DNA of 26,195 nucleotides from a virus (IMGVR_UViG_3300046468_002127:1-26195); one strand, 5' to 3'. Numbered from the stretch's first letter, positions 5,910-26,195 are shown. Numbers and translations: made by a program. Notes: generated from the letters alone by a model not told the origin.

Positions 5910-6191
5910 ATGGAAGAACTACTCCTACTAGAACCGCGAGAGATCTTTAATGACATGATCATAGGGGTTTCCTACGAACCCTTTGCTGTCGTTTATGACA
6001 AAGATCAGGTCGTTGAATATTGGGCGGGGGAGATGTCGAAAAAAAACCCAGAACTCAAAGAAAATGAAAAATACCACATGGCGTTAGAGTACCTTGAGTT
6101 CAACACCCATAGGGGAGACCACACACCTATTTTCGTGTCCCCGCAAGACAGAGAGATACTTTTGGATCAAATCTCTGAGGAGTCAACATAG
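5910..6191 (+). CDS. Small acidic protein of unknown function
   Basis: This 93-residue ORF is the only plus-strand gene inside the left structural block. It has a plausible ribosome-binding site (AGAGG 6 bases before ATG). It is acidic, with a mixed alpha/beta pattern (IIGVSYEPFAVVYDKDQVVEYW, then a charged helix ELKENEKYHMALEYLEF) and no recognised domain. It is divergent from the zinc-ribbon gene (70-base gap, presumably holding both promoters) and convergent with the next gene, overlapping its 3' end by 25 bases. Coding status rests on the ribosome-binding site and the protein-like composition. Confidence 0.65.
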   Translation: MEELLLLEPREIFNDMIIGVSYEPFAVVYDKDQVVEYWAGEMSKKNPELKENEKYHMALEYLEFNTHRGDHTPIFVSPQDREILLDQISEEST

Positions 6192-6601
6192 AGGTCGATA
6201 GAACTATCTGTTTTAAGGTTAAACCTTACACTCTCAAGAAGCTCTCGTACAGAAGATTGAGAATCTGCGGTGAAATACTCAACATTGCCGAGTTCAACAA
6301 AGCCCGTAGAGTTTCTCATGAAAGCGACCAAGCGGTTTCTTGTCTTTCTTACGAAAACCTTTGTGAGAACCTCACGCCCTCGAAGTAGGTTGAAGAATGC
6401 TGTTACTGTTTTGCCTCTTTTTTGTTTGCGGATGGTAGAAGACTTGGCGTTAAACCTAGCATTGACCATGAGGGCAACATCTTCTGCCGCTGATGCGACG
6501 ACCTCGAGGTTCAAGGAGTCAAATCGACTAGCAGATTTTTCAAGTCTGGCGATACGGTGTTCAAGTTGAGCGATTTTCTGTGATGCTGTTAGTTGTCTCA
6601 T
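6167..6601 (-). CDS. Tagged small protein (N-terminal RLEK module)
   Basis: The 144-residue product starts with MRQLTASQKIAQLEHRIARL followed by EKSA, the clearest form of the tag. A compact domain follows: SLNLEVVASAAEDVALMVNA, then alternating strands (TVTAFFNLL, EVLTKVFVRK, NRLVAFMRNSTG, FVELGNVEYFT) and a last helix (SVRELLESVRFNL). There is no membrane segment and no recognised family. AAAGGAT upstream supports the start at 6601. Its first 53 bases are identical to those of the 10660-11259 gene although the remainders are unrelated. A virion-packaged or head-internal protein is likely by inference from the tag. Confidence 0.75.
   Translation of the reverse strand: MRQLTASQKIAQLEHRIARLEKSASRFDSLNLEVVASAAEDVALMVNARFNAKSSTIRKQKRGKTVTAFFNLLRGREVLTKVFVRKTRNRLVAFMRNSTGFVELGNVEYFTADSQSSVRELLESVRFNLKTDSSIDLYVDSSEI
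6549..6601 (-). repeat. 53-base tag repeat, copy 1
   Basis: This stretch encodes the first residues of the tagged protein and is identical, base for base, to 11207-11259, the start of another gene. The identity ends abruptly at the ATG on one side and within the RIA-x-LEK codons on the other. Confidence 0.95.
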
Positions 6602-9375: not shown

Positions 9376-10146
9376 TTGAAAACTTTAATTAGTTTATTTT
9401 CGGGGGCGGGAGGGATGGATATCGGATTTCATGCAGCAGGCTTTCAGACTCTTGTTGCAGTAGAACAAGATCACTCTTGTTGTGAGACGCTAAGACTGAA
9501 TATGCCAAATGTACCTGTTATAGAAGGTGATATTTCAGGGATCACGACTGAAGAAATTTTACGGACGGCAGGAGTAAAGCCTCTAGACATAGACGTAGTT
9601 ATAGGCGGGCCTCCTTGCCAAAGCTTTAGCTTAGCAGGGGATCGGATGGGGATGGATGACCCAAGGGGGCTTCTTTTACTAGAGTATATTCGAGTGGTTA
9701 GAGAAGCTTTGCCAAAGGTATTTGTAATGGAAAATGTAAAAGGGATGGTAAATTGGTCAAAAGGTAGAGCAAAGGATGCAATAGTAAGTGGGATGAGCGA
9801 GCCAATCTTATATGATGATATTGAATATAGTTATGAGCTAAGTTTTCAAGTTTTAAATTCCGCACATTTTGGGGCCCCGCAGTTCAGAGAGAGATTCTTT
9901 ATTGTCGGTAATAGAATAAATCAGGTATTTGAGTTCCCAAAGGCTACTCACGGCATTACAGAATCGTCTGAATTAGTCGCGAGGGGGCAGATAACCTTGT
10001 TTAATGCATTTTCAGAAAGTACCCTTTTGCCCTACACGACAGTCGGAGATGCGATTGGCTCACTGTCCGACGCTAGCCCCCCTTCTGAAAATGCATTAAA
10101 GATTTCTAAAACTATCAAAGATAGGATTAAAAAACATGGACACTAA
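9376..10146 (+). CDS. DNA cytosine-C5 methyltransferase, N-terminal part (motifs I-VIII)
   Basis: The 256-residue product carries the catalytic half of a cytosine-C5 methyltransferase: motif I FSGAGGMDIGF (residues 8-18, S-adenosylmethionine binding), motif IV GGPPCQSFS with nucleophile C81, motif VI ENVKGM (119-124) and motif VIII QFRERFFIVG (169-178). It starts at TTG with AAGGGGG six bases upstream. It stops at TAA (10144-10146) before motifs IX and X, which lie in the +1 frame from 10136. The window has no matching restriction enzyme, so it looks like an orphan phage methyltransferase for self-protection or altered base marking. It is on the opposite strand to its neighbours and AT-richer by eye, which suggests acquisition. 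If not rejoined with the downstream frame, it lacks the target-recognition end and should be inactive alone. Confidence 0.9.
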   Translation: MKTLISLFSGAGGMDIGFHAAGFQTLVAVEQDHSCCETLRLNMPNVPVIEGDISGITTEEILRTAGVKPLDIDVVIGGPPCQSFSLAGDRMGMDDPRGLLLLEYIRVVREALPKVFVMENVKGMVNWSKGRAKDAIVSGMSEPILYDDIEYSYELSFQVLNSAHFGAPQFRERFFIVGNRINQVFEFPKATHGITESSELVARGQITLFNAFSESTLLPYTTVGDAIGSLSDASPPSENALKISKTIKDRIKKHGH

Positions 10147-10555
10147 ACTTAAAAACCACGAGAAAACCGCTCATGCTCCTAGTACGATAAAAAAGATTAA
10201 ACTTGTAGAACAAGGGAAAAAGCTTTCAGATATTACGAAAACTTTTGGGTCTACATATAGACGATTAGATCCAAATAAGCCTTCTCCGACTGTTACTAGA
10301 AGTGGCTATAGGGACTTCATTCATCCTAATTACGATAGAATGCTTACAGTCCGCGAATTGGCCTGTTTGCAAACATTCCCATTAGATTGGGAGTTCGTCG
10401 GAACACGCTTAGATTCATATAGTAGTAAAAGAAAAGTTTCGATGACTCAATTTGGGCAAGTAGGTAACGCAGTACCTCCTATCCTTGCTCAGGCCGTTGC
10501 AAGATCGGTTTTAGATATTTTAATTAAGGACGAAGAAATCTCGAAATCCATATAG
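10136..10555 (+). CDS. DNA cytosine-C5 methyltransferase, C-terminal part (motifs IX-X)
   Basis: The 139-residue frame holds the missing end: motif IX region YRRLDPNKPSPTVTRSG, then VRELACLQTFPLDWEFVG, and motif X GQVGNAVPPILAQAVA. It is +1 relative to the upstream half. The two frames are both open over about 12 codons around ATT-AAA-AAA-CAT, an A6 run; one A fewer would fuse them into one protein of about 390 residues, a normal family length. Alternatives: a sequencing or assembly indel, a recent inactivating mutation, programmed slippage, or two separately translated subunits, since the internal ATG at 10136 overlaps the first stop region. The last codons run out of frame into a ykuK-like remnant. 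Confidence 0.85.
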   Translation: MDTKLKNHEKTAHAPSTIKKIKLVEQGKKLSDITKTFGSTYRRLDPNKPSPTVTRSGYRDFIHPNYDRMLTVRELACLQTFPLDWEFVGTRLDSYSSKRKVSMTQFGQVGNAVPPILAQAVARSVLDILIKDEEISKSI

Positions 10556-10659: not shown

Positions 10660-11259
10660 TCAGATATGCTCGTCTTCATGTGTTTCGAGAAAATCTCTAG
10701 TGTAGTCTTCGATCTCTCTCCCCAGCTCTCTAAACTCCGTCTTGAGAGCCTTTAGGGTATGCTTCCAAGCCAAGCCGTTTTTGATGTCTCTAATATTCTT
10801 GAGGTGAAATGCTTTCTTCCCATCCATGTAGACGGTGAAAGAAGGATCTTTACCTCTGATCTTGCTGCCGAGGCTCCTCTCGTCAAAGACGATAGTTAGG
10901 TCAAGATCTATATTCGCACCCCGCCACATATCGACCGTAAACTTGTTCGCACTTAGTGACTTGACATCCCTCTCATGGCTATCATGGTAAGAGCCGATAG
11001 CCCCCTCGTATTTGTTATCAGGGGCGTGTTCGTATTTGAATTCATAGTCTCGGCCCAATTGTCTAGAAATCTGAAAAGGGAGTATCTGGTCTATTAGCCA
11101 TTGCTCGTACCCTTTGCTAATGTCTTGATGTATCGCCTTGTGAATCTCTTTAGCTCGTCTCATATTGCTCTTGAAAATACCAATTAAGGCCTGCTTCTCA
11201 AGATGAGCGATACGGTGTTCAAGTTGAGCGATTTTCTGTGATGCTGTTAGTTGTCTCAT
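10660..11259 (-). CDS. Tagged protein (N-terminal RLEK module)
   Basis: The 199-residue product starts with the tag MRQLTASQKIAQLEHRIAHL then EKQA. After it comes a helical segment (RRAKEIHKAIHQDISKGYEQ) and a mixed region with strands (NIDLDLTIVFDERS, SFTVYMDGKKAFHL), ending in a charged helix (REIEDYTRDFLETHEDEH). The KAIHQDI... helix resembles KAIHEEIASW in the 17580-18587 protein, so the cargo parts may be distantly related. AAGGAGG upstream supports the start. No known family is recognised; a packaged virion protein is the inference. Confidence 0.75.
   Translation of the reverse strand: MRQLTASQKIAQLEHRIAHLEKQALIGIFKSNMRRAKEIHKAIHQDISKGYEQWLIDQILPFQISRQLGRDYEFKYEHAPDNKYEGAIGSYHDSHERDVKSLSANKFTVDMWRGANIDLDLTIVFDERSLGSKIRGKDPSFTVYMDGKKAFHLKNIRDIKNGLAWKHTLKALKTEFRELGREIEDYTRDFLETHEDEHI
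11207..11259 (-). repeat. 53-base tag repeat, copy 2
   Basis: Identical to 6549-6601. It encodes the N-terminal tag of the 10660-11259 product and ends exactly at the ATG on the 5' side. Confidence 0.95.
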
Positions 11260-15542: not shown

Positions 15543-16601
15543 ATGATAGACTTCCTAGACCACCCCGACAACTTTGCGATGCAGATAAGACTAGCTTCTG
15601 CTGACAAAAGGACTTTGTGTAAGATCGCCCTGATCCAAGTCAAAAAGGCGGGTCGCATTTCTGAGATGGGCAATTGGATCTTCAACGCAATACAATCAGG
15701 TTTGATGGCGGTGAAAGGTATGCTGACTAAAGCAGCAAATGCCTTACACTCATTCACGAGAATGATTTTGTTTTCTAATGTTGTTATGAAGTCTTTGACC
15801 TCTGTCTTCCGTAATGTTGCTTATCAGAGACTTCTAGGAGCTATGTACGACTCATGGCTGTTAGGTGTCGAAGACAAGTCGGTGAACTTGAAGCGAACTC
15901 CAAAAGGAGTGGGGAAGTATCTCATGAGCAAGGTAAAAAAGAAGAAGTTTAGAAATGCCTACTCTAAGGGGGTCGGATCTTTCTACATGAAAGATCCCTT
16001 TTACGAGGAATATCTGATGGGACACAATGGTGAAGACGAATCCCAGCTCACAGCAAGGGCGAAGAAGGTTGTTTACAGAGACATAGGTACTCGAACAATG
16101 TCAGAGATGGCGAAAGTGGCCTTTGATAGTCTGAATATCGGCAATACAGCCCTTCAATTCATGAGAGACGCTATGGGGAAAGAAGCATATACAGGAAGAG
16201 ACCTAATACACGGAGGAGGTTCGGGAAGGGTGAAAAATTACAAGAGTAGTCAGGTAACAAACACTTTTTTAGCTAAGTTTCTTGTTCAGTGCGTTACTTG
16301 GGTGGCTCTGCATATAATGGGCTACGGTGTGTTTGCTTTTTATTCAATGATACCTCTAGGTGTCGTGGGTCTGTTCTACTACAGCGGTACAGAAGCGGTC
16401 TTCCAAAAAGGTGAGCTATCTAGGCAAGTCTATCGGAAGCTCTCTAAGGTCTTCAAGAAGAAGAAATTAAAGGATGATTACTTTGACATCTTAGATAAGA
16501 AGATACCTGTAAGAGACGTATTCATACGCAACAGTATAGGAGGGATCGACAACCCTACAAAGGAAGACCTAAAATCTATAAAGGAAAAGACAGATGCTTA
16601 A
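15543..16601 (+). CDS. Hydrophobic paralogue A1 (candidate packaged membrane-active protein)
   Basis: The 352-residue product starts behind AAGGAG with MIDFLDHPDNFAMQIRLAS, a leader shared with the next gene (MLNFLADPSQFQ...IRLAS). Amphipathic helices follow, then AYQRLLGAMYDSWLLGVED, PFYEEYLMG and DIGTRTMSEMAK, all conserved in the paralogue. Residues about 243-283 are strongly hydrophobic (FLAKFLVQCVTWVALHIMGY; PLGVVGLFYY), one or two membrane segments. The YxSWxxG core also resembles AAYLSWKSD in the minus-strand pair 19707/21178. No named family is recognised. A protein carried in the virion and delivered to the host membrane fits the leader, the hydrophobic segment and the neighbours, but this is inference. 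Confidence 0.75.
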   Translation: MIDFLDHPDNFAMQIRLASADKRTLCKIALIQVKKAGRISEMGNWIFNAIQSGLMAVKGMLTKAANALHSFTRMILFSNVVMKSLTSVFRNVAYQRLLGAMYDSWLLGVEDKSVNLKRTPKGVGKYLMSKVKKKKFRNAYSKGVGSFYMKDPFYEEYLMGHNGEDESQLTARAKKVVYRDIGTRTMSEMAKVAFDSLNIGNTALQFMRDAMGKEAYTGRDLIHGGGSGRVKNYKSSQVTNTFLAKFLVQCVTWVALHIMGYGVFAFYSMIPLGVVGLFYYSGTEAVFQKGELSRQVYRKLSKVFKKKKLKDDYFDILDKKIPVRDVFIRNSIGGIDNPTKEDLKSIKEKTDA

Positions 16602-17583
16602 CTTTCTCGCGGATCCCTCTCAGTTTCAAGAACGAAATATAAGGCTCGCTTCGAATAGAGAGTCTCTATATAGGACTGCTTCTTTTCAACTAAGGAAGGC
16701 TAGGTCGATCACACAAGTGAAGAACTTCATCGTGAACCTTGTTCAAACAGGTCTCGCGAAAGTCAGGAACTTCAAGAACCTCATCACCAAGGCTTTCCAC
16801 AAGATCACCAGAGCCATCTTTATATCTACCCCTGTAATATCGCACCTCACTGTTTTATTCAGGAAAGTGGCGTATCAGCGTGTTCTAGAGGGGATGTATG
16901 ATTCTTGGAGGTTGGGAGTCGAAGATAGCGAGGCGGGATTTGAGGAAAGGACACCTTCTATGGTCATAGGTGAGCTGGTCAAGAAAAGCAAAAGCAGGAA
17001 GTTTAGAAAAATTGTAACCCAAGTATCTGGGTCGGGTTATAGTACTGAGCCTTTTTATGAAGAATATCTGTTGGGCTTTGAGGGTGGTTCTTCATCACAA
17101 CTGAAGCAGAAAGCTCTAATGTTAGTTAAGAAAGACATAGGCACGCGGACGATGACAGAGTTTGCGAAGTCCCTCTTCGACATCTCGAACCCTATCCGAG
17201 CCGTAAAGAAAATAAAGAACGAGTTGAAAAAAGACGATAGTGACAGAGAGATCTCCGCCTTCGTCTCAACTTTTATAGTTGGTCTTCTGACCTATGAATC
17301 AGTGAAGTTCTTTGGCTTCATCCTTACATCTAAGATTCAAATAGGTCTAGCTTTAGTAGGGTTGTTTTACTACAGACCTACAGAGGCTTTTGTAAAAGAA
17401 GGGAAGGCATGGCAGGTCTTCAAAAAAAGCCTCAAGAGAGAGACAGACCTTTTTGTCGATGATGTTAATCTAGATGATCACATTCCACGCAAAGACGTTT
17501 TCATCGAAGATGCTATGGGTGATTTCAAGAGCCTCAAAGACTTCACTCCAGAAGATATGGAAAATCTCGAAGAGCAACTTTAG
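16594..17583 (+). CDS. Hydrophobic paralogue A2
   Basis: The 329-residue product overlaps the end of the previous gene by 8 bases and is probably translationally coupled (AAGGAAAAGAC upstream). It is a clear paralogue of A1 along its length: MLNFLADPSQFQ leader with NIRLAS, AYQRVLEGMYDSWRLGVED, PFYEEYLLGFEGG, DIGTRTMTEFAK and IPRKDVF near the end. A hydrophobic region lies at about residues 228-265 (FVSTFIVGLLTYESVKFFGF; IGLALVGLFYY). Its stop shares bases with the stop of the converging 17580-18587 gene. Function unknown, as for A1. Confidence 0.75.
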   Translation: MLNFLADPSQFQERNIRLASNRESLYRTASFQLRKARSITQVKNFIVNLVQTGLAKVRNFKNLITKAFHKITRAIFISTPVISHLTVLFRKVAYQRVLEGMYDSWRLGVEDSEAGFEERTPSMVIGELVKKSKSRKFRKIVTQVSGSGYSTEPFYEEYLLGFEGGSSSQLKQKALMLVKKDIGTRTMTEFAKSLFDISNPIRAVKKIKNELKKDDSDREISAFVSTFIVGLLTYESVKFFGFILTSKIQIGLALVGLFYYRPTEAFVKEGKAWQVFKKSLKRETDLFVDDVNLDDHIPRKDVFIEDAMGDFKSLKDFTPEDMENLEEQL

Positions 17584-18587
17584 CTTTTGTTGTAAAGGCT
17601 TCTCATCTTCTCCAACGTGCCCCATTTGGCATCACGCGAGATCAGCGATGTGAAGTCCCATCTCACTAGAGCCGCAGTGTTTTTAGTGTCGTCGAAGTCA
17701 ATAAGGAATAAGAACACAGGTCGCTTAGGGTCTTCTTCCAGCCCGCTAACTTTTTTATCTGCAAGCACGACATTTTTCCACACAGCCCCTTCTGCCGATT
17801 CTCGACCACCGTATTCGGCCCAAGCCTCATCTTCTCCTTGTTGGCGATAAGTGGATTCTGCGTAGTCTTCAACGAGACCCCCGAAGTTCTTGACACCATA
17901 GTTCTTAACGAAATCCTCTGACCAAGAAGCTATTTCTTCGTGGATCGCCTTCGAGATAAGTTTACGGTTCTCTTGGTAGTCTTTCAAGTGCTTAGAGAGA
18001 GCCTTCGCAAAGCTTGCTTTGAGGAGCAAGGGTATGTTTGATCTGAGAGTTCCGCGAATAGGATTGTACGTTATCTTCCAATCCTGCTTTTTATTTAACC
18101 ACTCTAAGGAGTGATTGAGGCTAGGCGGTGCGGTCACATAAAACCTTCTTGCCTTATAGTCAAAATTCGCTTCTACATCATTAGGGTCTTTCCACACCTT
18201 GAAGGGGGAAGAATAAATACGTAAAAAGAAATTCTCAAAAGTCAGGGTGACCTCTTCAGAACCTGACTTCTTGATAAGAGTCGGACGAATTTTGAAGACA
18301 ACTTTAAACGACATACCGCTTTTTTCAAGGACTTCAATAATTCTCTTCAGCGGTCTAAAAAGAGATGTCACGATGCTCTTCATACCTTTCCCAGAGAGGG
18401 AGAGATCAAAGTCGTACCATGGGTTTAATTGAAGTATCGTAGCCTTAAGGTCTTTTTGGCTACCGATCTCGAAGCTTCTGGACGTTGTCTTAAAATCCAT
18501 GTCAACCCATTCTTGGTACTCCGCCTCCTCCAACTTTGCGGTTCTCATTTCAAGGTTCGCCAAAGCCATCTCTGCTGTTTTCTTCAT
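17580..18587 (-). CDS. Tagged protein (divergent RLEK module)
   Basis: The 335-residue product opens with MKKTAEMALANLEMRTAKLE, a divergent form of the tag (ALANLExRTAKLEE). The body mixes strands (FKVVFKIRPTLIKK, VTLTFENFFLRIY, ARRFYVTAPP) and helices (SFAKALSKHLKDYQENRKLI). KAIHEEIASWSEDFVKNY near residue 220 resembles KAIHQDISKGYEQWLIDQ in the 10660-11259 protein. The C-terminal PVFLFLIDFDDTKNTAALVR is a strand pair. No membrane segment and no recognised family. AGAGGAAG supports the start. It is downstream of the actin-like gene on the same strand, with a 54-base gap. Confidence 0.75.
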   Translation of the reverse strand: MKKTAEMALANLEMRTAKLEEAEYQEWVDMDFKTTSRSFEIGSQKDLKATILQLNPWYDFDLSLSGKGMKSIVTSLFRPLKRIIEVLEKSGMSFKVVFKIRPTLIKKSGSEEVTLTFENFFLRIYSSPFKVWKDPNDVEANFDYKARRFYVTAPPSLNHSLEWLNKKQDWKITYNPIRGTLRSNIPLLLKASFAKALSKHLKDYQENRKLISKAIHEEIASWSEDFVKNYGVKNFGGLVEDYAESTYRQQGEDEAWAEYGGRESAEGAVWKNVVLADKKVSGLEEDPKRPVFLFLIDFDDTKNTAALVRWDFTSLISRDAKWGTLEKMRSLYNKS

Positions 18588-18641
18588 ATCTTCCTCTTTT
18601 TTTAATATCTTATATGAAAGAGGGCATATAAAAGAAAAAAA

Positions 18642-19634
18642 TCAGTCCTCGTCATACTCCTGCTGGGCAAGAACCAACATCCCCTTGCTTACCGCATGGA
18701 ACGGATCAGAGGCATGACGCACCTCTGAGATCTCAATAGGGAAACGCTTACGCTTCGTCTCAAAAACCTCACGGAAAAAGTCCATGAACCCCCCCGCTAG
18801 ACTCGTACCTCCCCCAACAACAATTGGGATAGGCTTGTTGAGCGTCAGATGACCTCCCCTAGTTACGAACTGCTGGGCGATGTTATCCAATGCGTGTTCA
18901 ATAAGAGCCTTGTAGTAGAAGCTGATCGCCTCTTCCTCACGGTTCTTAGGGTCTTTCAAGTCAATGCCCTTCTCCTTGACTGCACACATCTTAGATGCCG
19001 TACCTCCAACAGAACGTGCCGCACCTTGATCAATCCAATCTCCACCGCGAGCTACGGAGAAAGACAATCCCTCAATGGTATTGATTGCAAGAGCGATGTT
19101 GGTCATACCAGAGCCGAAGCTGATGCCGATACCTGAGAAACCTTCCTTCGCAGTCTCAGCAAAGACAATAGCCATAGCCTCGTTCGCGGGGTGCGGGGTG
19201 TACCCACACTCCTGTACGATGCGGGTAAACACACCCTTATGGTAAACCACATCCATTTGAACATCTACGGGTGCTGCGGGGATGGAGAAGTAACAATGCT
19301 CACCTTCATGAGAAGGTTCTCCGAGTACGTCTTTAACCATGTGTCCAAGCACTGTGAGAGAGTCAATCTCATCTGGAGACACAAGACCTGCTTTAAGGGG
19401 TCTACGACCCTCTCTGCCGAACATATTAGCTACTTCCATAGCTTCATCGCCGAGAACCAATAAATGGTCGTCAGATTCAATATAAGAGACTGATCCTAGC
19501 TTCAGCATTTTCTTAGCCGTGGCAGGGAGGTCAATAAAGAGATCTCTCATCCTGCGGATAGAGACTTCCTTTCCCTTCATTCTTGAAGAGACAAGGTTCA
19601 TTGTCCCGATATCTAAACCTACACCTTTGCTCAT
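18642..19634 (-). CDS. Actin-like ATPase (actin/MreB/Hsp70 superfamily)
   Basis: The 330-residue product has the nucleotide-binding motifs of the superfamily: phosphate-1 GLDIGTMNLVSS (6-17), connect-1 NEAMAIVFAE (151-160), phosphate-2 GIGISFGSGMTN (168-179) and adenosine motif IVVGGGTSLAGGF (271-283). Phosphate-2 has Ser where most members have Asp (DxGGGT). Length fits a minimal actin fold such as ParM or MreB. In plasmids and phages such proteins form filaments for DNA or capsid positioning; that is a family expectation only. No ParR-like partner is evident next door. GATAAGGAG gives the start, and its 5' end is fused to the palindrome at 19647-19688, a possible translational control. Confidence 0.88.
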   Translation of the reverse strand: MSKGVGLDIGTMNLVSSRMKGKEVSIRRMRDLFIDLPATAKKMLKLGSVSYIESDDHLLVLGDEAMEVANMFGREGRRPLKAGLVSPDEIDSLTVLGHMVKDVLGEPSHEGEHCYFSIPAAPVDVQMDVVYHKGVFTRIVQECGYTPHPANEAMAIVFAETAKEGFSGIGISFGSGMTNIALAINTIEGLSFSVARGGDWIDQGAARSVGGTASKMCAVKEKGIDLKDPKNREEEAISFYYKALIEHALDNIAQQFVTRGGHLTLNKPIPIVVGGGTSLAGGFMDFFREVFETKRKRFPIEISEVRHASDPFHAVSKGMLVLAQQEYDED

Positions 19635-19646
19635 AGTAGAGACTCC

Positions 19647-19688
19647 TTATCATCTAGGGTTGTTAGATTATACAACCTCAGATGATAA
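19647..19688 (-). promoter_or_regulatory. 42-base imperfect palindrome at the ribosome-binding site of the actin-like gene
   Basis: Outer arms TTATCATCT and AGATGATAA are perfectly complementary; the inner GAGGTTG and CAACCCT pair with mismatches around an AT-rich centre that contains TATAAT. On the minus strand the 3' arm ends in GATAA and runs straight into GGAG of the ribosome-binding site. It has no T-run, so an operator or translational switch is more likely than a terminator. Confidence 0.55.
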
Positions 19689-19706
19689 AAGCCCTACCAC
19701 AAAGTT

Positions 19707-20615
19707 CTATGCGTGGCTTTCAAGGAGTCTTACAACACTCGCTACTCGAGGGTAGTTTGAAGCAGTCTTACCTGCCGACTCTGCATCAAAGGCATCGACG
19801 TTGACACCATAACGGTAGAAAGCTTTCTCTACAAGGTTGAGCAAAAGAGAAGCCATAGCGACACCGCCTGTTGCAATACCCCCATAGAAGTTTTTGATGC
19901 CACTTAAACTTAAGCCTAAATTAGAGTAGCTATTTTCTATTTGAGAGAAGGTGTTTCCATGTCTGAACATCAACAAAAACACTGCTTTATAAGCGACCCA
20001 ATTTGCACCAGATAACACAACAGTTGCAACAGCGGGAGCTAGATCCAAGAATGCTTTAAGCAACCTGTAGAGCGTCTTTGAAGTTCTTTTCAGAGCTTTT
20101 AGGAATGCTTCATCAGACCCGCCTTTGGTAGGTCTGCCTGATTCAATATTTGAAATTTCTTTAGCGATGTGTCCGTAATCAGACTTCCAAGAGAGATAGG
20201 CGGCTTTAAGCCTTTTCTGTAGACCTCCTTCATAAGTACGGTTTATCATCTTATCAAGGGGCAAGACCGTTATATCGTCTTTTCTGAATGTAGATTTGAT
20301 GGGATTTGTGAGGTTGAATTCTTCTAAGAGCAAACTGTCTTCTGTAGGCAGATAACCTGATGTCACCACTCCCTCTATCCTGATCGCTAGAGCCAAGCCT
20401 AGTCGCTCTTTCATCGCTTCTATATTCTCGAAGTTCATGGGTACTAAAGCAGTTGACCCCAAGTCTATGAGAGCCCCCGCTATTTTCTTTAAGATGTTTC
20501 GAGGGATATTACGCAAGCGTTTCACGATGCCTGTTAAGTCCTCAATTACTCCTGCTTCTTTTTCGAGGCGAGCGATACGGAATTCGAGAGCCCTGAGTTG
20601 CTGGGCTGATATCAT
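19707..20615 (-). CDS. Hydrophobic tagged paralogue B2
   Basis: The 302-residue product starts with the tag MISAQQLRALEFRIARLEKE, then EDLTGIVKRLRNIPRNILKK. It parallels the 21178-22230 product: QKRLKAAYLSWKSDYGHI, hydrophobic region about 185-225 (APAVATVVLSGANWVAYKAV), second hydrophobic helix MASLLLNLVEKAFYRYGV and the end KTASNYPRVASVVRLLE. The ATG overlaps the previous stop by 4 bases (ATGA), so it is the last gene of a coupled operon. Two membrane segments are predicted. No named family is recognised; a virion-carried membrane protein is the inference. Confidence 0.78.
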   Translation of the reverse strand: MISAQQLRALEFRIARLEKEAGVIEDLTGIVKRLRNIPRNILKKIAGALIDLGSTALVPMNFENIEAMKERLGLALAIRIEGVVTSGYLPTEDSLLLEEFNLTNPIKSTFRKDDITVLPLDKMINRTYEGGLQKRLKAAYLSWKSDYGHIAKEISNIESGRPTKGGSDEAFLKALKRTSKTLYRLLKAFLDLAPAVATVVLSGANWVAYKAVFLLMFRHGNTFSQIENSYSNLGLSLSGIKNFYGGIATGGVAMASLLLNLVEKAFYRYGVNVDAFDAESAGKTASNYPRVASVVRLLESHA

Positions 20616-21181
20616 TTTTTACCTTTCCTTAAGGCTTTGAGGGCTTCCATAGCTGAAGCGATATCATTGTCTTCAGACACTACCTCGGAAGCGGAAGATT
20701 TAGAGGCTACCGTGTTTTTGTTCACAATAGTTGAAGGGATGAACATCAAGTCATCCTCTGGAGATTGAGACATAGGAGAGGCATTAGAGACCTGAGAACT
20801 GTTCACGCTAATAGTTGGCATTTGAGCCGCAATCGCCTGTGCGAGTACCTCAGGGGACAATATATTGCCTATTCGATCAACCAAGCTCTTCGTTAAAGAA
20901 TCCATGTCAACAGGAGATTCGATAACCCTTTCAACTACTCTCTCCACTACTCTTTCAGAAGGCTTAGTCCTTAAAGCCCTCTTGCCTGAGTTCACCCTGA
21001 GCTTCCCTTTGTTCTCTTTGACTGTAAGGGTGAGCATTCCTGATGATACGAGAAATTGCACTTCCTTGTTAGTATCATACGTCGTCTTAGGGCAATCGAA
21101 AGACTGTCCCTCAGACAAGTTGATATTCAGAGAGTTAACCCTAACCCCCTGAGGATGAGTGCATTTCACCGAATAGGTCAT
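20612..21181 (-). CDS. Hypothetical protein with a beta-rich N-terminus and disordered tail
   Basis: The 189-residue product has a small beta-rich N-terminal domain of about 55 residues (VRVNSLNINLSEGQSFDCPK; VQFLVSSGMLTLTVKENKGK). A VVERVVERVIE repeat and a short helix (SPEVLAQAIAAQM) follow, then a Ser/Asn-rich linker and a C-terminal charged helix (ASAMEALKALRKGKK). It overlaps both neighbours by ATGA (4 bases), so all three genes of the operon should be translated in a fixed ratio. No family is recognised. It may be an adaptor for the two flanking hydrophobic paralogues; that comes only from the layout. Confidence 0.7.
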   Translation of the reverse strand: MTYSVKCTHPQGVRVNSLNINLSEGQSFDCPKTTYDTNKEVQFLVSSGMLTLTVKENKGKLRVNSGKRALRTKPSERVVERVVERVIESPVDMDSLTKSLVDRIGNILSPEVLAQAIAAQMPTISVNSSQVSNASPMSQSPEDDLMFIPSTIVNKNTVASKSSASEVVSEDNDIASAMEALKALRKGKK

Positions 21182-22230
21182 GCGTAGGCCGCAGACCTGA
21201 GCATTCTTGTGAGGTGAATAACCGCTGGATACTTGCTTGCGGTCTTAGCCATCTCATCAAACTCATCAGTCTTTACAACCCAGCGGTACATGACCTTCTC
21301 AAGTACAGAGAGAAGAAGAACCATGATCCCTGCATTAGCTTTGAGTATCTCAGTATAGGGTTTTGCCATCACGTCAAAGTTAGCAGAATGGTTGATAACC
21401 TGATCATAGTTTACTGTCTTCGTCCCACCTGGTACTTCTATCTCAATCGTCTCAGGGGGTTGAAAAATAGTTGGGGTATCGTTGACATAAGGTTTTAAAT
21501 CGGGATTTGGAATGTTTATCCTGGTTGGGCCTATTTCGAGCGTCACTGATTTAGGTATCACTTCACTCTTCACCACAGAATAGCCGCCTACCTTAAAGAA
21601 GTAAGTACCCATGACTCCAAGAAGCTGAAACACAATACCTGTAGCGACAAGCTGAGTGCCTCCAATGATAGGAAGTGCTACAGAGATGAGGCGATACGCC
21701 AACTTAGAATATCTCTTGAGTCCGCCAAGAGCTATCTCGGTTAGCTTTCTCTGAGAAGTAGGAGGGTTGAGGATATGGCTGAAATCACTGTGCCAAGAAA
21801 GGTACGCGGCCTTGATCCTCTTCTGTTGCTCTCCGTCGTACATGTTTGCTAGCTTCTTAAGAGAGACTTTCTTTTTTCCTGCGATGCCTCCTGTGAAGAT
21901 TGAATCCATAGGCTTCTTGGCCTCAAAGCTGACAATTTGAGGGAGGTCGTCGGCGGTTGTAATGAGACCACTGAATGCACGGGCGATACGAATAGCAAGA
22001 AGAACACCTAAGTGGTCGTCCATGATCTTCATCTTCTTGAAGAGAGGGCGGACAAGCATCTCAAACGCTTCTCTGAGTGCGTTCACAAGATTCATGACGA
22101 AGTTCTTAGGGAGGTTGTAAATTCTCTTAAGAAGTCCTGTCACATCGGAGGTGAAACTTGCATTACGCTCAAGGTGTGCAATCCTACGCTCTAAAAAAGC
22201 GATCCGTTGTTGTGCTGATATTTTTCTCAT
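21178..22230 (-). CDS. Hydrophobic tagged paralogue B1
   Basis: The 350-residue product starts with the tag MRKISAQQRIAFLERRIAHL then ERNASF. It has SDVTGLLKRIYNLPKNFV, QKRIKAAYLSWHSDFSHI, a hydrophobic region about 175-220 (PIIGGTQLVATGIVFQLLGV), a beta-rich insert of about 75 residues missing from paralogue B2 (PTRINIPNPDLKPYV; TIEIEVPGGTKTVNY), a second hydrophobic helix (AGIMVLLLSVLEKVMYRW) and the end KTASKYPAVIHLTRML. AAGGAGA supports the start. It is first in the coupled three-gene operon. A membrane-active virion protein is the best guess. Confidence 0.78.
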   Translation of the reverse strand: MRKISAQQRIAFLERRIAHLERNASFTSDVTGLLKRIYNLPKNFVMNLVNALREAFEMLVRPLFKKMKIMDDHLGVLLAIRIARAFSGLITTADDLPQIVSFEAKKPMDSIFTGGIAGKKKVSLKKLANMYDGEQQKRIKAAYLSWHSDFSHILNPPTSQRKLTEIALGGLKRYSKLAYRLISVALPIIGGTQLVATGIVFQLLGVMGTYFFKVGGYSVVKSEVIPKSVTLEIGPTRINIPNPDLKPYVNDTPTIFQPPETIEIEVPGGTKTVNYDQVINHSANFDVMAKPYTEILKANAGIMVLLLSVLEKVMYRWVVKTDEFDEMAKTASKYPAVIHLTRMLRSAAYA

Positions 22231-22275
22231 AGTGGGTGTCTCCTTTTTTTAGAAGACCTTCCCACTATAGAAGAA

Positions 22276-22830
22276 CTATTGACTCTTCGTATTGAAGTAG
22301 TTTATCGCCCTTCGCACCGCTCTCTCTTCCCCCACCTTTATACCTTTATCCACGAAGTTGTACTTCGCAATAGCTGGGTGAATCCAACCTTTAGACCCAA
22401 CTAGGGGAGCTTGCCTAAAGATCACTTCTCCTGTCTCAGTCTTCAGGGGGATGACCTTATTTTCACCCCGTCTCCTAGCAAGCCACTTTGCTTCATAAGG
22501 ATCTTTACGCTCAAGGTACTTATTCACCCAATCCCAAGTACTTTGAATCTTGATCTTGCCTCCTTTGATGATCTCGTAAGAGAACGAGTCATAGAAGTCT
22601 TGGCTTTTAGGGATGCCCGCCCCTTTGCCAGAAGCTTTCTTTGCCTCCTCTTTTACCGCCTTGACAATCTCTTCCCCGAAGATCTTGATCACATCTTTAG
22701 TGATAGCTTCGCCTTTCAGGGCTTTAACATCACTGAACTTGTTCTTACGTGGCTTGTAGCTCCGTAAGTCCCAATTCTTTTTACTTCTTGGACGGGGTGG
22801 GTTCTTGAGTTTACGGGCATCAAATTTCAT
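22276..22830 (-). CDS. Candidate minor tail / tail-completion protein
   Basis: The 184-residue, very basic product begins with a Lys/Arg/Pro-rich arm, then helices (DVIKIFGEEIVKAVKEEAKK). A strand region contains KIQSTWDWVNKYLE, and a GWIHPAIAKYNFVDKGIKVG stretch precedes a final helix. A WIHP motif before a C-terminal helix is typical of HK97 gp10-like minor tail or neck proteins, which seems the best match. GAGAGGTG supports the start. It is downstream of a structural gene on the same strand with a 23-base gap. Family assignment is tentative. Confidence 0.6.
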   Translation of the reverse strand: MKFDARKLKNPPRPRSKKNWDLRSYKPRKNKFSDVKALKGEAITKDVIKIFGEEIVKAVKEEAKKASGKGAGIPKSQDFYDSFSYEIIKGGKIKIQSTWDWVNKYLERKDPYEAKWLARRRGENKVIPLKTETGEVIFRQAPLVGSKGWIHPAIAKYNFVDKGIKVGEERAVRRAINYFNTKSQ

Positions 22831-22853: not shown

Positions 22854-24224
22854 TCAGTAATTCTGATTTTCCCAAGCCGCTGTTCTACCCTTACGCTCTA
22901 CAGAATCTGATACATCAGGCCTGTTCGCACCCGAAGGATAAGCACTGTCTCCAATAAGAGGATACTTAGCATCAGATCTCGCAGTGTAAGTGTCTCTCTG
23001 TGGCCAATACCCATACTGAGTCTTTGCCCAATATACAGGAACTCCGTCTACAGGGAAGTTATATCTCATATCTCCGCTGTCAAGATAAGCAATGTTAAAG
23101 TGTTGCTGGAGAATATTACCTCTATTAGAAGGGTATCTGACAGCACCTATAGAGTACCTGTCATTGTTAGTCTTAACAATGAAGTCCTTCTGAGACACGA
23201 TAGGACTAGGTCCGATCCAGATCTCATAGGAGTGTTCTTTACGCCGACCTCTGTCTTCTTGAACAATCCTCTTCTCCGTCTCATCCGTAGCAATGATGAT
23301 GTCATAAGGGCCTTCATAGCCACCTTTAATCCCTGTACCAAAACAGATCTTGCAAAGGCTGTCAGGTTGCTTCCCATACGATAATGTCTCCCTGTTGAAA
23401 GCTGTACAGAAGCAAGGCTCTCCCACTTGCTTACGGGTGAACAACTTAACCCTCTCACCGCTTTGCTCTAAGATCCAATTGTTCCTACGGATGCCTTCTC
23501 TCCAGATGTAGTCGATCTTCTCAACCTCCCTGTCAGAGAAAGGTTGACATTGATCCAACGGGGTCTCATGGAGTCTCCCTGTTAGAGGATCTTCTGCCAC
23601 TGTAGTAAGTCTATAGAAGTCTCTCCTGTCCACGCCAACGCCAAGTCTTGTGCTTGGATCGTATGCTAGGTAGCTGACTTTAACTACAGACTGATCTGTG
23701 ATCTCTAGAATGTTGCTCTCTCTAAGAGTGACGGCATCAGTTGTCGGAACACCTCTGTAGTAGAGAACCACTTGTCGCAGGTCGCCCAAGACTCTCGCGA
23801 CGGGTATGACTTCACCGTCTACCGTAACGACTACATCTTTGGACGAGTCTGCTGAATCATATATGCCATTGAGTTTAGCGATAGGGTACTTTGTAAGGAA
23901 GCGATAAGGGTCTTCTGCTTGCCCGCCTCTGGAGATCCATGCGGAGCCTTGTACTACTTCCTCATGGACAGTCCAAGTATGCATTTGATCCCTATAGAGA
24001 TTACCTCCTACAGGGACTACGTTTACTCTATAGTATGTTCCTCTATCAGAGTTACTCGATCTGTATATATTGACCCCTCTGATGATCCAGCCTTCATTGC
24101 CGTGAAGCAATGCTGGGTTATCCCATCGCACGTCGATCTCTCCTTTTTTGAAGGGAGAGACAGCGATTGTGTTCTTAGGAGGGAGTGGCCAAGGGCTTCT
24201 ACTGTTGTACCATCCATGTGACAT
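22854..24224 (-). CDS. Virion structural protein with a zinc-binding Cys cluster
   Basis: The 456-residue product has a fibronectin-like N-terminal beta domain of about 100 residues (EIDVRWDNPALL, WIIRGVNIYRSSNSD, YYRVNVVPVGG). A middle beta domain follows (DVVVTVDGEVIPVARVLGDL). Four cysteines, C271-x-C273 and C291-x2-C294, are followed by FGTGIKGGY, a probable zinc knuckle similar to the CxxCxGTG elements seen in other phage structural proteins. More strands follow to the C-terminus. There is no enzyme motif. GAGAGGAT supports the start. It is probably a tail, baseplate or neck component; which one is not clear. Confidence 0.78.
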   Translation of the reverse strand: MSHGWYNSRSPWPLPPKNTIAVSPFKKGEIDVRWDNPALLHGNEGWIIRGVNIYRSSNSDRGTYYRVNVVPVGGNLYRDQMHTWTVHEEVVQGSAWISRGGQAEDPYRFLTKYPIAKLNGIYDSADSSKDVVVTVDGEVIPVARVLGDLRQVVLYYRGVPTTDAVTLRESNILEITDQSVVKVSYLAYDPSTRLGVGVDRRDFYRLTTVAEDPLTGRLHETPLDQCQPFSDREVEKIDYIWREGIRRNNWILEQSGERVKLFTRKQVGEPCFCTAFNRETLSYGKQPDSLCKICFGTGIKGGYEGPYDIIIATDETEKRIVQEDRGRRKEHSYEIWIGPSPIVSQKDFIVKTNNDRYSIGAVRYPSNRGNILQQHFNIAYLDSGDMRYNFPVDGVPVYWAKTQYGYWPQRDTYTARSDAKYPLIGDSAYPSGANRPDVSDSVERKGRTAAWENQNY

Positions 24225-24343: not shown

Positions 24344-25183
24344 TTACTTGTCGAGATCTCTCTTGAGAACTTTAATCTCTCTCTGAAGCTCTCGGTTCAT
24401 CTCACTAGCTACGCGAATCTGCGAAGCCCTTTTACCTCTGCTGAAGAGCTTCTTCAGATAATTAAGACCCTTACCTAAAACAGAATACTTCTTCTCGATC
24501 TCCCCTTGGAGGTCGTCGAGGATGTTTTCATACTCTCTAACGTAATCAGGTTGAGCTTGTAGAGATCCCACTTCTTGAGCGAGAGCTTCCAGCTCCTTGT
24601 CTTTCTTAGCTCTGGAGACACGTTTGGTGACATCTTGGATTGTCTCTCTTCGGGCTTTTTCCTCTACCGTCTCCCCTTTGTGGAGAAATTTATCAGAGAT
24701 GGACAGAGGTATGCCTTTCGCACCTGTCAGATCCGCTCCCTTGAGTTTCGCACCTGTCAGATCCGCACCCGTGAGATCCGCATCGTCTAGTTTTGCTCCT
24801 TCAAGATCCGCATCTTTGAGAATCGCATTAGTAAGAATCGCACCCCAGAAATCCGCACCCCTGAGATCCGCTTTGCTGAGATTCGCATCACTGAAATTCG
24901 CATCTATGAGTTTCGCATCTATAAGATACGCACCTGTGAGATACGCATCCCTGAGCCGAGCACCTGTAAGTGTAGTATGAGAGAGATCCGCACCTATAAG
25001 TTCCGCATGATTGAGATACGCACCGTCAAGATCCGCACCTGATAGTTTCGCATCTTTGAGATCCGCACCTACAAGATCCGCACGCGATAGTTTCGCATCT
25101 ATAAGATTCGCACCTGAAAGATCCGCGTAGTGAAGATCCTTATCTCCATAGAGGGCTCTTTTTAAGTCGTTTGGGTTAGCCAT
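24344..25183 (-). CDS. Pentapeptide-repeat protein with coiled coil and RASQIR end
   Basis: Most of the product, about residues 15-150, is pentapeptide repeats of the A(D/N/K)LxxA type (ADLSGANLIDAKLSRADLVG), folding into a right-handed beta-helix. An HKGETVEEKARRETIQD linker and a charged coiled coil follow, and then LFSRGKRASQIRVASEM and a final helix. Some family members (Qnr, MfpA) mimic DNA and protect or inhibit gyrase; no such role can be read here. AAGG abuts the first ATG (25192), so I prefer the second ATG at 25183 (279 residues, MANPNDLKRALYGD). The coiled coil and RASQIR part match the 6677-8050 protein. It ends at the terminator at 24269. Confidence 0.85.
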   Translation of the reverse strand: MANPNDLKRALYGDKDLHYADLSGANLIDAKLSRADLVGADLKDAKLSGADLDGAYLNHAELIGADLSHTTLTGARLRDAYLTGAYLIDAKLIDANFSDANLSKADLRGADFWGAILTNAILKDADLEGAKLDDADLTGADLTGAKLKGADLTGAKGIPLSISDKFLHKGETVEEKARRETIQDVTKRVSRAKKDKELEALAQEVGSLQAQPDYVREYENILDDLQGEIEKKYSVLGKGLNYLKKLFSRGKRASQIRVASEMNRELQREIKVLKRDLDK

Positions 25184-25202
25184 TGTTTTCATCCTTAGTT
25201 GA

Positions 25203-25315: not shown

Positions 25316-26195
25316 TTACTTGTTGAGGTCTCTCTTCAGCTCACTGATCTCTCTCTGAATTTCTCTATTCATCTCACTAGCTACGCGGATCTGCGAAGCC
25401 CTTTTACCTCTGCTGAAGAGCTTCTTCAGATAATTAAGACCCTTACCTAAAACAGAATACTTCTCCTCGATTTCAGTTTGCAGGTCTTCGAGGACTTTTC
25501 CGTACTCTTTAACATAATCAGGTTGAGCTTGTAGAGAACCCACTTCTTGAGCGAGAGCTTCCAGCTCCTTGTCTTTCTTAGCTTTGGAGACACGTTTGGT
25601 GACATCTTGGATTGTCTCTCTTCGGGCTTTTTCCTCTACCGTCTCTCCTTTGTGGGGGAATCTATCAGATATGGACAGAGGTATACCTATCGCACCTTGA
25701 AGATCCGCTCCATTGAGTTTCGCATCTGTCAGATCCGCACCTGAAAGATCCGCAAGATTGAGATCCGCACCGCCAAGATTCGCATTAGTAAGAATAGCAC
25801 CTATAAGTTTAGCCTGATGGAGATTCGCACGTCTGAGATCCGCTTTACTTAAGTTAGCACGTTCAAGTTTCGCATTTATGAGTTCCGCATTAGTAAGGAT
25901 CGCTCTTCCAAGCTTCGCATCTGTCAGATCCGCACCTGATAGATCCGCACCTATAAGATTCGCACCCCAGAGTTTCGCTTTGCTGAGTTTCGCTTTGCTG
26001 AGTTTCGCTTTGCTGAGTTTCGCATCTATAAGATTCGCACCTTTGAGTTTCGCATCTATAAGATACGCACCTTGAAGACTCGCACCAATGAGTTTCGCAT
26101 TGTTGAGATCCGCACCTGTCAGATCCGCATCCCAGAGACCCGCATCCCTGAGATCCGCATTTCTGAGATCCGCATTTGTGAGATCCGCTCTGGGA
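25316..26195 (-). CDS. Pentapeptide-repeat protein, N-terminus beyond the right edge
   Basis: The minus-strand frame is open from the stop at 25316 to the window edge (293 codons) with no start inside, so the N-terminus lies outside. About 160 residues of pentapeptide repeats (ADLxxANLxxA type) are followed by HKGETVEEKARRETIQD, coiled coil, LFSRGKRASQIRVASEM and a final helix. Its last 120 or so codons are almost identical in DNA to those of the 24344 gene, while the repeat part differs. A GTG at 25543 inside the coiled coil could be misread as a start, but the reading frame upstream is clearly protein-coding. Function as for its twin. Confidence 0.85.
   Translation of the reverse strand, partial: PRADLTNADLRNADLRDAGLWDADLTGADLNNAKLIGASLQGAYLIDAKLKGANLIDAKLSKAKLSKAKLSKAKLWGANLIGADLSGADLTDAKLGRAILTNAELINAKLERANLSKADLRRANLHQAKLIGAILTNANLGGADLNLADLSGADLTDAKLNGADLQGAIGIPLSISDRFPHKGETVEEKARRETIQDVTKRVSKAKKDKELEALAQEVGSLQAQPDYVKEYGKVLEDLQTEIEEKYSVLGKGLNYLKKLFSRGKRASQIRVASEMNREIQREISELKRDLNK
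25970..26023 (-). repeat. Perfect 15-base tandem repeat inside the pentapeptide gene
   Basis: The unit GAGTTTCGCTTTGCT (plus strand) occurs three times without change, followed by a partial fourth copy. It encodes three identical pentapeptides in phase with the solenoid, suggesting recent slippage or expansion. Confidence 0.95.

Follow-up and report, generated by a model that had tools for sequence, protein, structure and literature searches.

A modular helical tag and a recurrent [KR]xA(S/G) motif in a huge phage: candidate signals for loading accessory proteins into the head

Short N-terminal sequences can direct phage proteins into the capsid. The internal proteins of T4 carry an N-terminal capsid-targeting sequence, cut by the prohead protease gp21, that also takes foreign proteins into the head (as recounted in PMC9024508), and in P1 an N-terminal signal brings DarB, or a heterologous reporter in its place, to the capsid interior (PMC9024508). 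In SPN3US, the prohead protease gp245 removes N-terminal propeptides, two of which are only 20 to 24 residues long, with serine preferred at P1' (PMC10052503). Here, we describe two pairs of proteins, A1/A2 and B1/B2, encoded in a viral stretch of 26,195 bases (IMGVR_UViG_3300046468_002127:1-26195; hereafter the window), together with a modular tag carried by the B proteins. We also describe a site motif with a characteristic position, which recurs in protease, scaffold-like, and capsid proteins. An earlier note on this DNA had read the two pairs as a single four-member family of hydrophobic, possibly packaged proteins flanking an actin-like ATPase gene.

The window region has a near-identical copy in the 177-kb IMG/VR contig 3300046167_000921 and is found at 95 to 98% identity in the 22.8-kb contig 3300005941_001827. 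The 177-kb contig encodes a capsid protein that shares 89% identity with its counterpart in the uncultured 485-kb phage LR745208 and 38 to 47% with the capsid proteins of Bacillus phage G and Tunturiibacter phage Tunturi_5, and because of this resemblance the window is placed in a huge myovirus lineage. Tags were counted on four contigs (177 kb; 312 kb, 3300020178_000002; 275 kb; and 376 kb, 3300033182_000980) and on LR745208.

A modular tag on unrelated proteins

B1 and B2 begin with a heptad helix of approximately 24 residues, with the consensus MRR(S/T)ASE(I/V)IxxLExR(I/V)ARLE(K/R)xA(S/G), in which the hydrophobic residues follow a 3-4-3 spacing like that of a short coiled coil. Using an iterated profile of the B leader, we found 10, 26, 12, and 31 tagged proteins on the 177-, 312-, 275-, and 376-kb contigs, respectively; the same profile found no tag in LR745208. 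Once the tag is removed, 74 N-terminally tagged proteins fall into 61 clusters without detectable similarity to one another. A scan of viral contigs yielded a total of 145 unique N-terminally tagged proteins (median length, 164 amino acids [aa]) in 104 body clusters, the largest of which is B. Nearly all of the 104 representatives have no function assigned by Pfam or PHROGs, the exceptions being pentapeptide repeats and one JmjC/cupin protein. Within one genome, the tags share a mean DNA identity of 0.41 to 0.66 over 60 bases, and the 60 bases upstream share 0.29 to 0.34. As the tag DNA differs within a genome, while the DNA upstream is lower still in identity, it is the peptide that is maintained. 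The property by which targeting signals of the T4 and P1 type are recognized, a common N-terminal sequence on otherwise different proteins, is present here, and the tag may accordingly be read as a putative capsid-targeting signal.

All four ORFs lie at the coordinates given in the earlier note, and both pairs are clear paralogues, as it stated, with 31% identity between B1 and B2 (BLASTP, E=9e-33) and 37% between A1 and A2 (BLASTP, E=2e-59). Likewise, the two leaders it described, of the RLEK type on B1/B2 and IRLAS on A1/A2, are real and kept in relatives. A first expansion of the B family reached 68 members; because it was driven by the leader, the search was redone with the leader trimmed, and 13 members replaced that set. 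All B-family members are tagged, and nearly all have [KR]xAS about 18 to 20 residues from the C terminus. There are three B copies in the 177-kb contig and eight in the 312-kb contig. The C-terminal tail of the family, KxASxYPxVxxLxxxL, is weakly matched (E 0.016-0.6) by a conserved small protein, distinct from B and 133 to 136 aa long, on three contigs (L027:3350-3757, plus strand; 312-kb contig, 267342-267752; 376-kb contig, 368543-368944), and since it recurs there, the tail may be a second shared module.

The A family is found in only four contigs and one distant relative; A1 orthologues have 98% identity in 3300005941_001827 and about 50% in 3300020178_000002. All seven A-family members keep [KR]xAS behind a leader of about 14 to 20 residues, of the form M-x-x-(F/L)-L-x-x-P-x-x-F, and a search of the contigs for this form matched A proteins only. 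A2 has a second site, RTAS, at residues 27-30. Neither A1-A2 nor B1-B2 has a significant match in Pfam or PHROGs, and among GenBank phages A1, B1, and the 24-aa tag are all without a match, the power of tblastn being low for a 24-aa query. No paper joining huge phages with capsid targeting was found in the library searched, which leaves room for an earlier description of the tag.

The A and B proteins are basic (net charge of +9 to +25) and predicted to be helical. Of the 13 B members, 11 have at least one hydrophobic stretch (Kyte-Doolittle ≥1.6 over 19 residues), as do 5 of the 7 A members, versus about 15% of all proteins, counts that rest on paralogues and are not independent. The hydrophobic segments described in the earlier note are thus present as modest stretches in most members, A1 having none. 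AlphaFold models had a mean predicted local distance difference test (pLDDT) score of 45.6 for A1 and 54.4 for B1, both too low for fold comparison, and Foldseek with the low-confidence B1 model gave no match at E≤0.001. With marginal segments, poor models, and no fold match, the channel or envelope role that had been proposed can be entertained as a possibility. Membrane activity of the A and B bodies is weakly supported, as the members are paralogues and A1 lacks a stretch.

Upstream elements of tagged genes were also noted. On the 376-kb contig (L164-L182), CTCCAT upstream pairs with ATGGAG at the ribosome-binding site in 7 of 30 tagged genes and in 0 of 372 other genes; a 5' hairpin shared by tagged genes was seen in this one relative only and not in the window phage. 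A hairpin AGTGGG...CCCACT that encloses the B1 ribosome-binding site is predicted ahead of the B1 start (22231-22300, minus strand), the 70 upstream bases having a predicted -21.5 kcal/mol.

A recurrent site and the head maturation genes

The tag helix is usually followed by a short motif. In 113 of 156 tags (72%), [KR]xA follows the helix within 10 residues, versus 4 to 7% in control windows farther along the same proteins, and in most of the remaining tags serine replaces the alanine. The site comes 1 to 7 residues later than usual in 29 of the 113 (e.g., RLEANLNRTAS, RLEGKTAS, and RLESENAKTAG); as it shifts relative to the helix, the helix and the site are two separate elements. Across the proteins of the 177-kb contig, [KR]xAS occurs 94 times versus 37 in shuffles (2.5-fold), and no enrichment is seen there for [KR]xAA, [KR]xSA, or [KR]xGS. 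The motif peaks 16 to 35 residues from the C terminus, 12-fold and 7-fold in two contigs. It is also concentrated in the first 35 residues, with an approximately 10-fold peak in the first 15 residues in two other contigs, where the tag begins MRRSAS. The tagless LR745208 has no such end peaks. A mirror arrangement, with the site ahead of a short C-terminal helix, is found in a pentapeptide-repeat protein (Table 1). Near-identical pentapeptide-repeat proteins, at 24344-25192 and 25316-25543 (minus strand) and in L021, end GKRASQIRVASxMNREIQREIKxLKRD.

The same site is found among the head maturation genes. The head maturation protease matches phrog_18299 (E=1.7e-14), as does gp331 of Tunturi_5, and is encoded three genes upstream of the capsid protein, beside a scaffold-like gene. 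In the protease, IRVAS-G occupies a conserved N-terminal position, and more sites lie near the C terminus. An acidic protein encoded between protease and capsid, a scaffold candidate by position and composition, has up to 10 sites, several of them at the same places in relatives, and KLA-AS is conserved at residues 26-30 of the capsid protein. The recurrence of the site in protease, scaffold-like, and capsid proteins suggests that the protease prefers [KR]-x-Ala followed by a small residue.

We consider it fairly probable that the tag is a capsid-targeting propeptide removed by the prohead protease and that the A and B proteins are packed in the head and delivered with the DNA. The tag helix of B1 and B2 would dock on the scaffold or core during head assembly, after which the prohead protease (phrog_18299 family) would cut behind [KR]-x-Ala at the helix end. 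A second cut at the conserved B site, about 20 residues from the C terminus, would free the body inside the head, and in A proteins the cut would fall at the conserved [KR]xAS behind their own leader of 14 to 20 residues. On infection the bodies would enter the host and may there associate with the membrane, their hydrophobic C-terminal halves being inserted in it or lying on it. The packaging raised in the earlier note is backed indirectly, by the modular tag and by a site common to capsid, protease, and scaffold-like proteins; like docking, cleavage, and ejection, it is a step that we infer.

Several observations weigh against this proposal. The A proteins have no helical tag, and about a quarter of the tags have S instead of A or no clear site. 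The capsid KLAAS is not exactly [KR]xAS, and the cleavage motif was deduced from co-occurrence, with cutting and packaging deduced in turn. Finally, LR745208 has a closely related capsid and a related protease, yet no tag, indicating that the tag is dispensable for head assembly.

A wider reading, for which we find the balance even, is that the tag constitutes a general delivery system, in which an interchangeable helix-plus-site tag at either protein end loads dozens of different and largely unknown proteins per phage into the head for injection. If so, the tag alone would identify the injected arsenal of a phage.

Gene neighborhood and other features of the window

The positions of all features are given in Table 1. 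Gene order was compared across 80 loci (L046-L125) retrieved with the actin-like protein, which has 298 relatives in viral contigs, and the order F-E-D22-actin is kept in nearly all well-covered loci. The phage ATPase matches Volactin (PF25216), the archaeal actin of Haloferax volcanii and a family known from haloarchaea, over its full length; the phage copy differs in sitting in this fixed cluster. In this huge-phage clade, the Volactin-family gene is almost always preceded by its partner D22.

Table 1. Features of the window and their positions
Feature	Position	Strand	Evidence
Tail-sheath-like protein, 1603 aa	596-5407		
Tagged protein, 144 aa; tag MRQLTASQKIAQLEHRIARLEKSAS; body unrelated to B	6167..6601	-	
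Tagged protein, 199 aa; tag MRQLTASQKIAQLEHRIAHLEKQAL; body unrelated to B	10660..11259	-	
A1, helical protein, 352 aa; N-terminal leader MIDFLDHPDNFAMQ then IRLAS	15543..16601	+	
A1 site IRLAS, residues 15-19	15585..15599	+	A-family alignment
A2, paralogue of A1, 329 aa; start overlaps A1 end	16594..17583	+	
A2 site IRLAS, residues 16-20	16639..16653	+	A-family alignment
C, 335 aa; variant tag MKKTAEMALANLEMRTAKLEEAEYQEW; downstream of actin-like gene	17580..18587	-	Weak tag match, 3e-3 (177-kb contig copy)
Actin-like ATPase, Pfam PF25216 Volactin; core gene of clade	18642..19634	-	E=1.1e-74
B2, tagged paralogue of B1, 302 aa	19707..20615	-	
B2 C-terminal sites KTAS (residues 283-286) and RVAS (residues 290-293)	19737..19769	-	B-family alignment
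B2 N-terminal tag MISAQQLRALEFRIARLEKEAG	20550..20615	-	Tag profile match
D22, 189 aa, between B1 and B2; core neighbor of actin-like gene across clade	20612..21181	-	
B1, tagged protein of B family, 350 aa	21178..22230	-	
B1 C-terminal site KTAS, residues 329-332, about 18 residues from end	21235..21246	-	B-family alignment
B1 N-terminal tag MRKISAQQRIAFLERRIAHLERNAS	22156..22230	-	Tag profile match
E, core gene upstream of B1	22276..22830	-	
F, virion structural protein phrog_1004; opens core cluster	22854..24224	-	E=2.1e-4
Pentapeptide-repeat protein; C-terminal mirror, RASQIRVAS then short helix MNRELQREIKVLKRD	24344..25192	-	

D22 overlaps both B1 and B2 by 4 bases, and B1-D22-B2 are therefore probably one transcript. 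The occurrence of B genes around D22 is limited to the window phage, the 95% relative, and contig 3300020178_000002 (312 kb), together with a smaller contig identical to the latter. The 312-kb contig has four B genes near its actin-like gene. Near the same spot, other close relatives have different tagged proteins and LR745208 has none. About 38 kb separate the A pair (117-119 kb) from the actin-like gene (157 kb) in the 312-kb contig. The flanking of the actin-like gene by the two pairs, described in the earlier note, thus holds in the window and not in this relative. As the insertions are confined to one sublineage and the A pair is distant in the 312-kb contig, gene order indicates that the flanking is incidental and that B fills an accessory slot.

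C has 335 aa in the window versus a 277-aa open reading frame (ORF) from the same start in the 177-kb contig (L021:19183 onward), a difference due to a frameshift or sequencing error. Two overlapping ORFs, 9376-10146 and 10136-10555 (plus strand), together make up a split gene resembling DNA cytosine methyltransferases, and the split is present in both the window and the 177-kb contig.

Alternative explanations and known systems

In an unlikely alternative, A and B would be distantly related within a single helical family that shares a YxSW core and acts as a membrane channel or as a set of pilot proteins. YxSW is confined to A1, A2, B1, and B2 among the 209 ORFs of the 177-kb contig, with 4 occurrences found versus 2.3 expected from shuffles. 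The proteins are all helical in low-confidence models, similar in length, and tandemly duplicated, and most members have hydrophobic stretches in the C-terminal half. However, profile-profile comparison by hhalign gave a probability of 0.2% in a first run, over a 14-column stretch around YxSW, 0.6% with deeper alignments of 7 A and 13 B members, and 1% with the leader trimmed, the aligned region differing in each run. Iterative searches gave no significant cross-match between A and B, and of the Y-x-R...YxSW core described in the earlier note, only YxSW is in all four proteins, Y-x-R being missing from the corresponding place in B1 and B2. Homology between A and B was rejected by BLAST-type, hidden Markov model, and profile-profile searches, with and without the leader. 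One four-member family is not supported, and A1/A2 and B1/B2 appear to be two separate families with only the short YxSW motif in common.

The tag could also be a coiled-coil docking helix that is neither packaged nor cleaved and serves to gather proteins in the infected cell, for example at an actin-like filament or replication compartment. This is suggested by the heptad I-L-I-L spacing, typical of short coiled coils, and by the B genes surrounding D22, the partner of the actin-like gene. Yet the actin-like gene and D22 are core in dozens of related tagless phages, a separate [KR]xA(S/G) motif at a shifting distance is not needed for docking, and its presence in protease, scaffold-like, and capsid proteins would be unexpected. 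We regard a docking helix as unlikely and consider it equally unlikely that A and B, instead of being cargo for delivery, serve as ordinary structural or neck components of the virion (connector accessories). Whereas the B genes lie within a cluster headed by a virion structural gene, and structural proteins too are cut by prohead proteases (PMC10052503), B is missing from most phages with the core cluster and varies in copy number, which suits accessory cargo, and A has the narrow distribution given above.

In huge phages, hundreds of genes have no known function. Should the tag mark proteins that are packaged in the head and injected, dozens of early-acting proteins per phage, candidates for counter-defense and host takeover, could be recognized from sequence alone, and the tag would be a ready label with which to load reporters into phage heads of very large size. 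The system would then also illustrate how a lineage of phages can shuffle one targeting signal among some hundred unrelated proteins.

A capsid-targeting propeptide would resemble the T4 system in placing a short N-terminal sequence, followed by a protease site, on head-bound proteins. The T4 protease site is of the LxE/IxE type, whereas the site proposed here is [KR]xA(S/G), cut after the alanine, with 10 to 31 tagged proteins per contig and a mirror arrangement at C termini. P1 DarB likewise has an N-terminal signal for capsid entry, but that signal is described for one protein, and the tag here is on about 100 unrelated bodies. SPN3US and phiKZ are also giant phages, with many internal proteins bearing N-terminal propeptides. 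In the available text on these phages, however, the propeptides processed by SPN3US gp245 are mostly 111 to 254 residues long, a C-terminal piece is lost only by the protease itself, and a common modular tag is not described. The present system would stand apart from T4, P1, and SPN3US in having a single tag shared by dozens of unrelated proteins in each phage, in its different site, and in the use of both protein ends.

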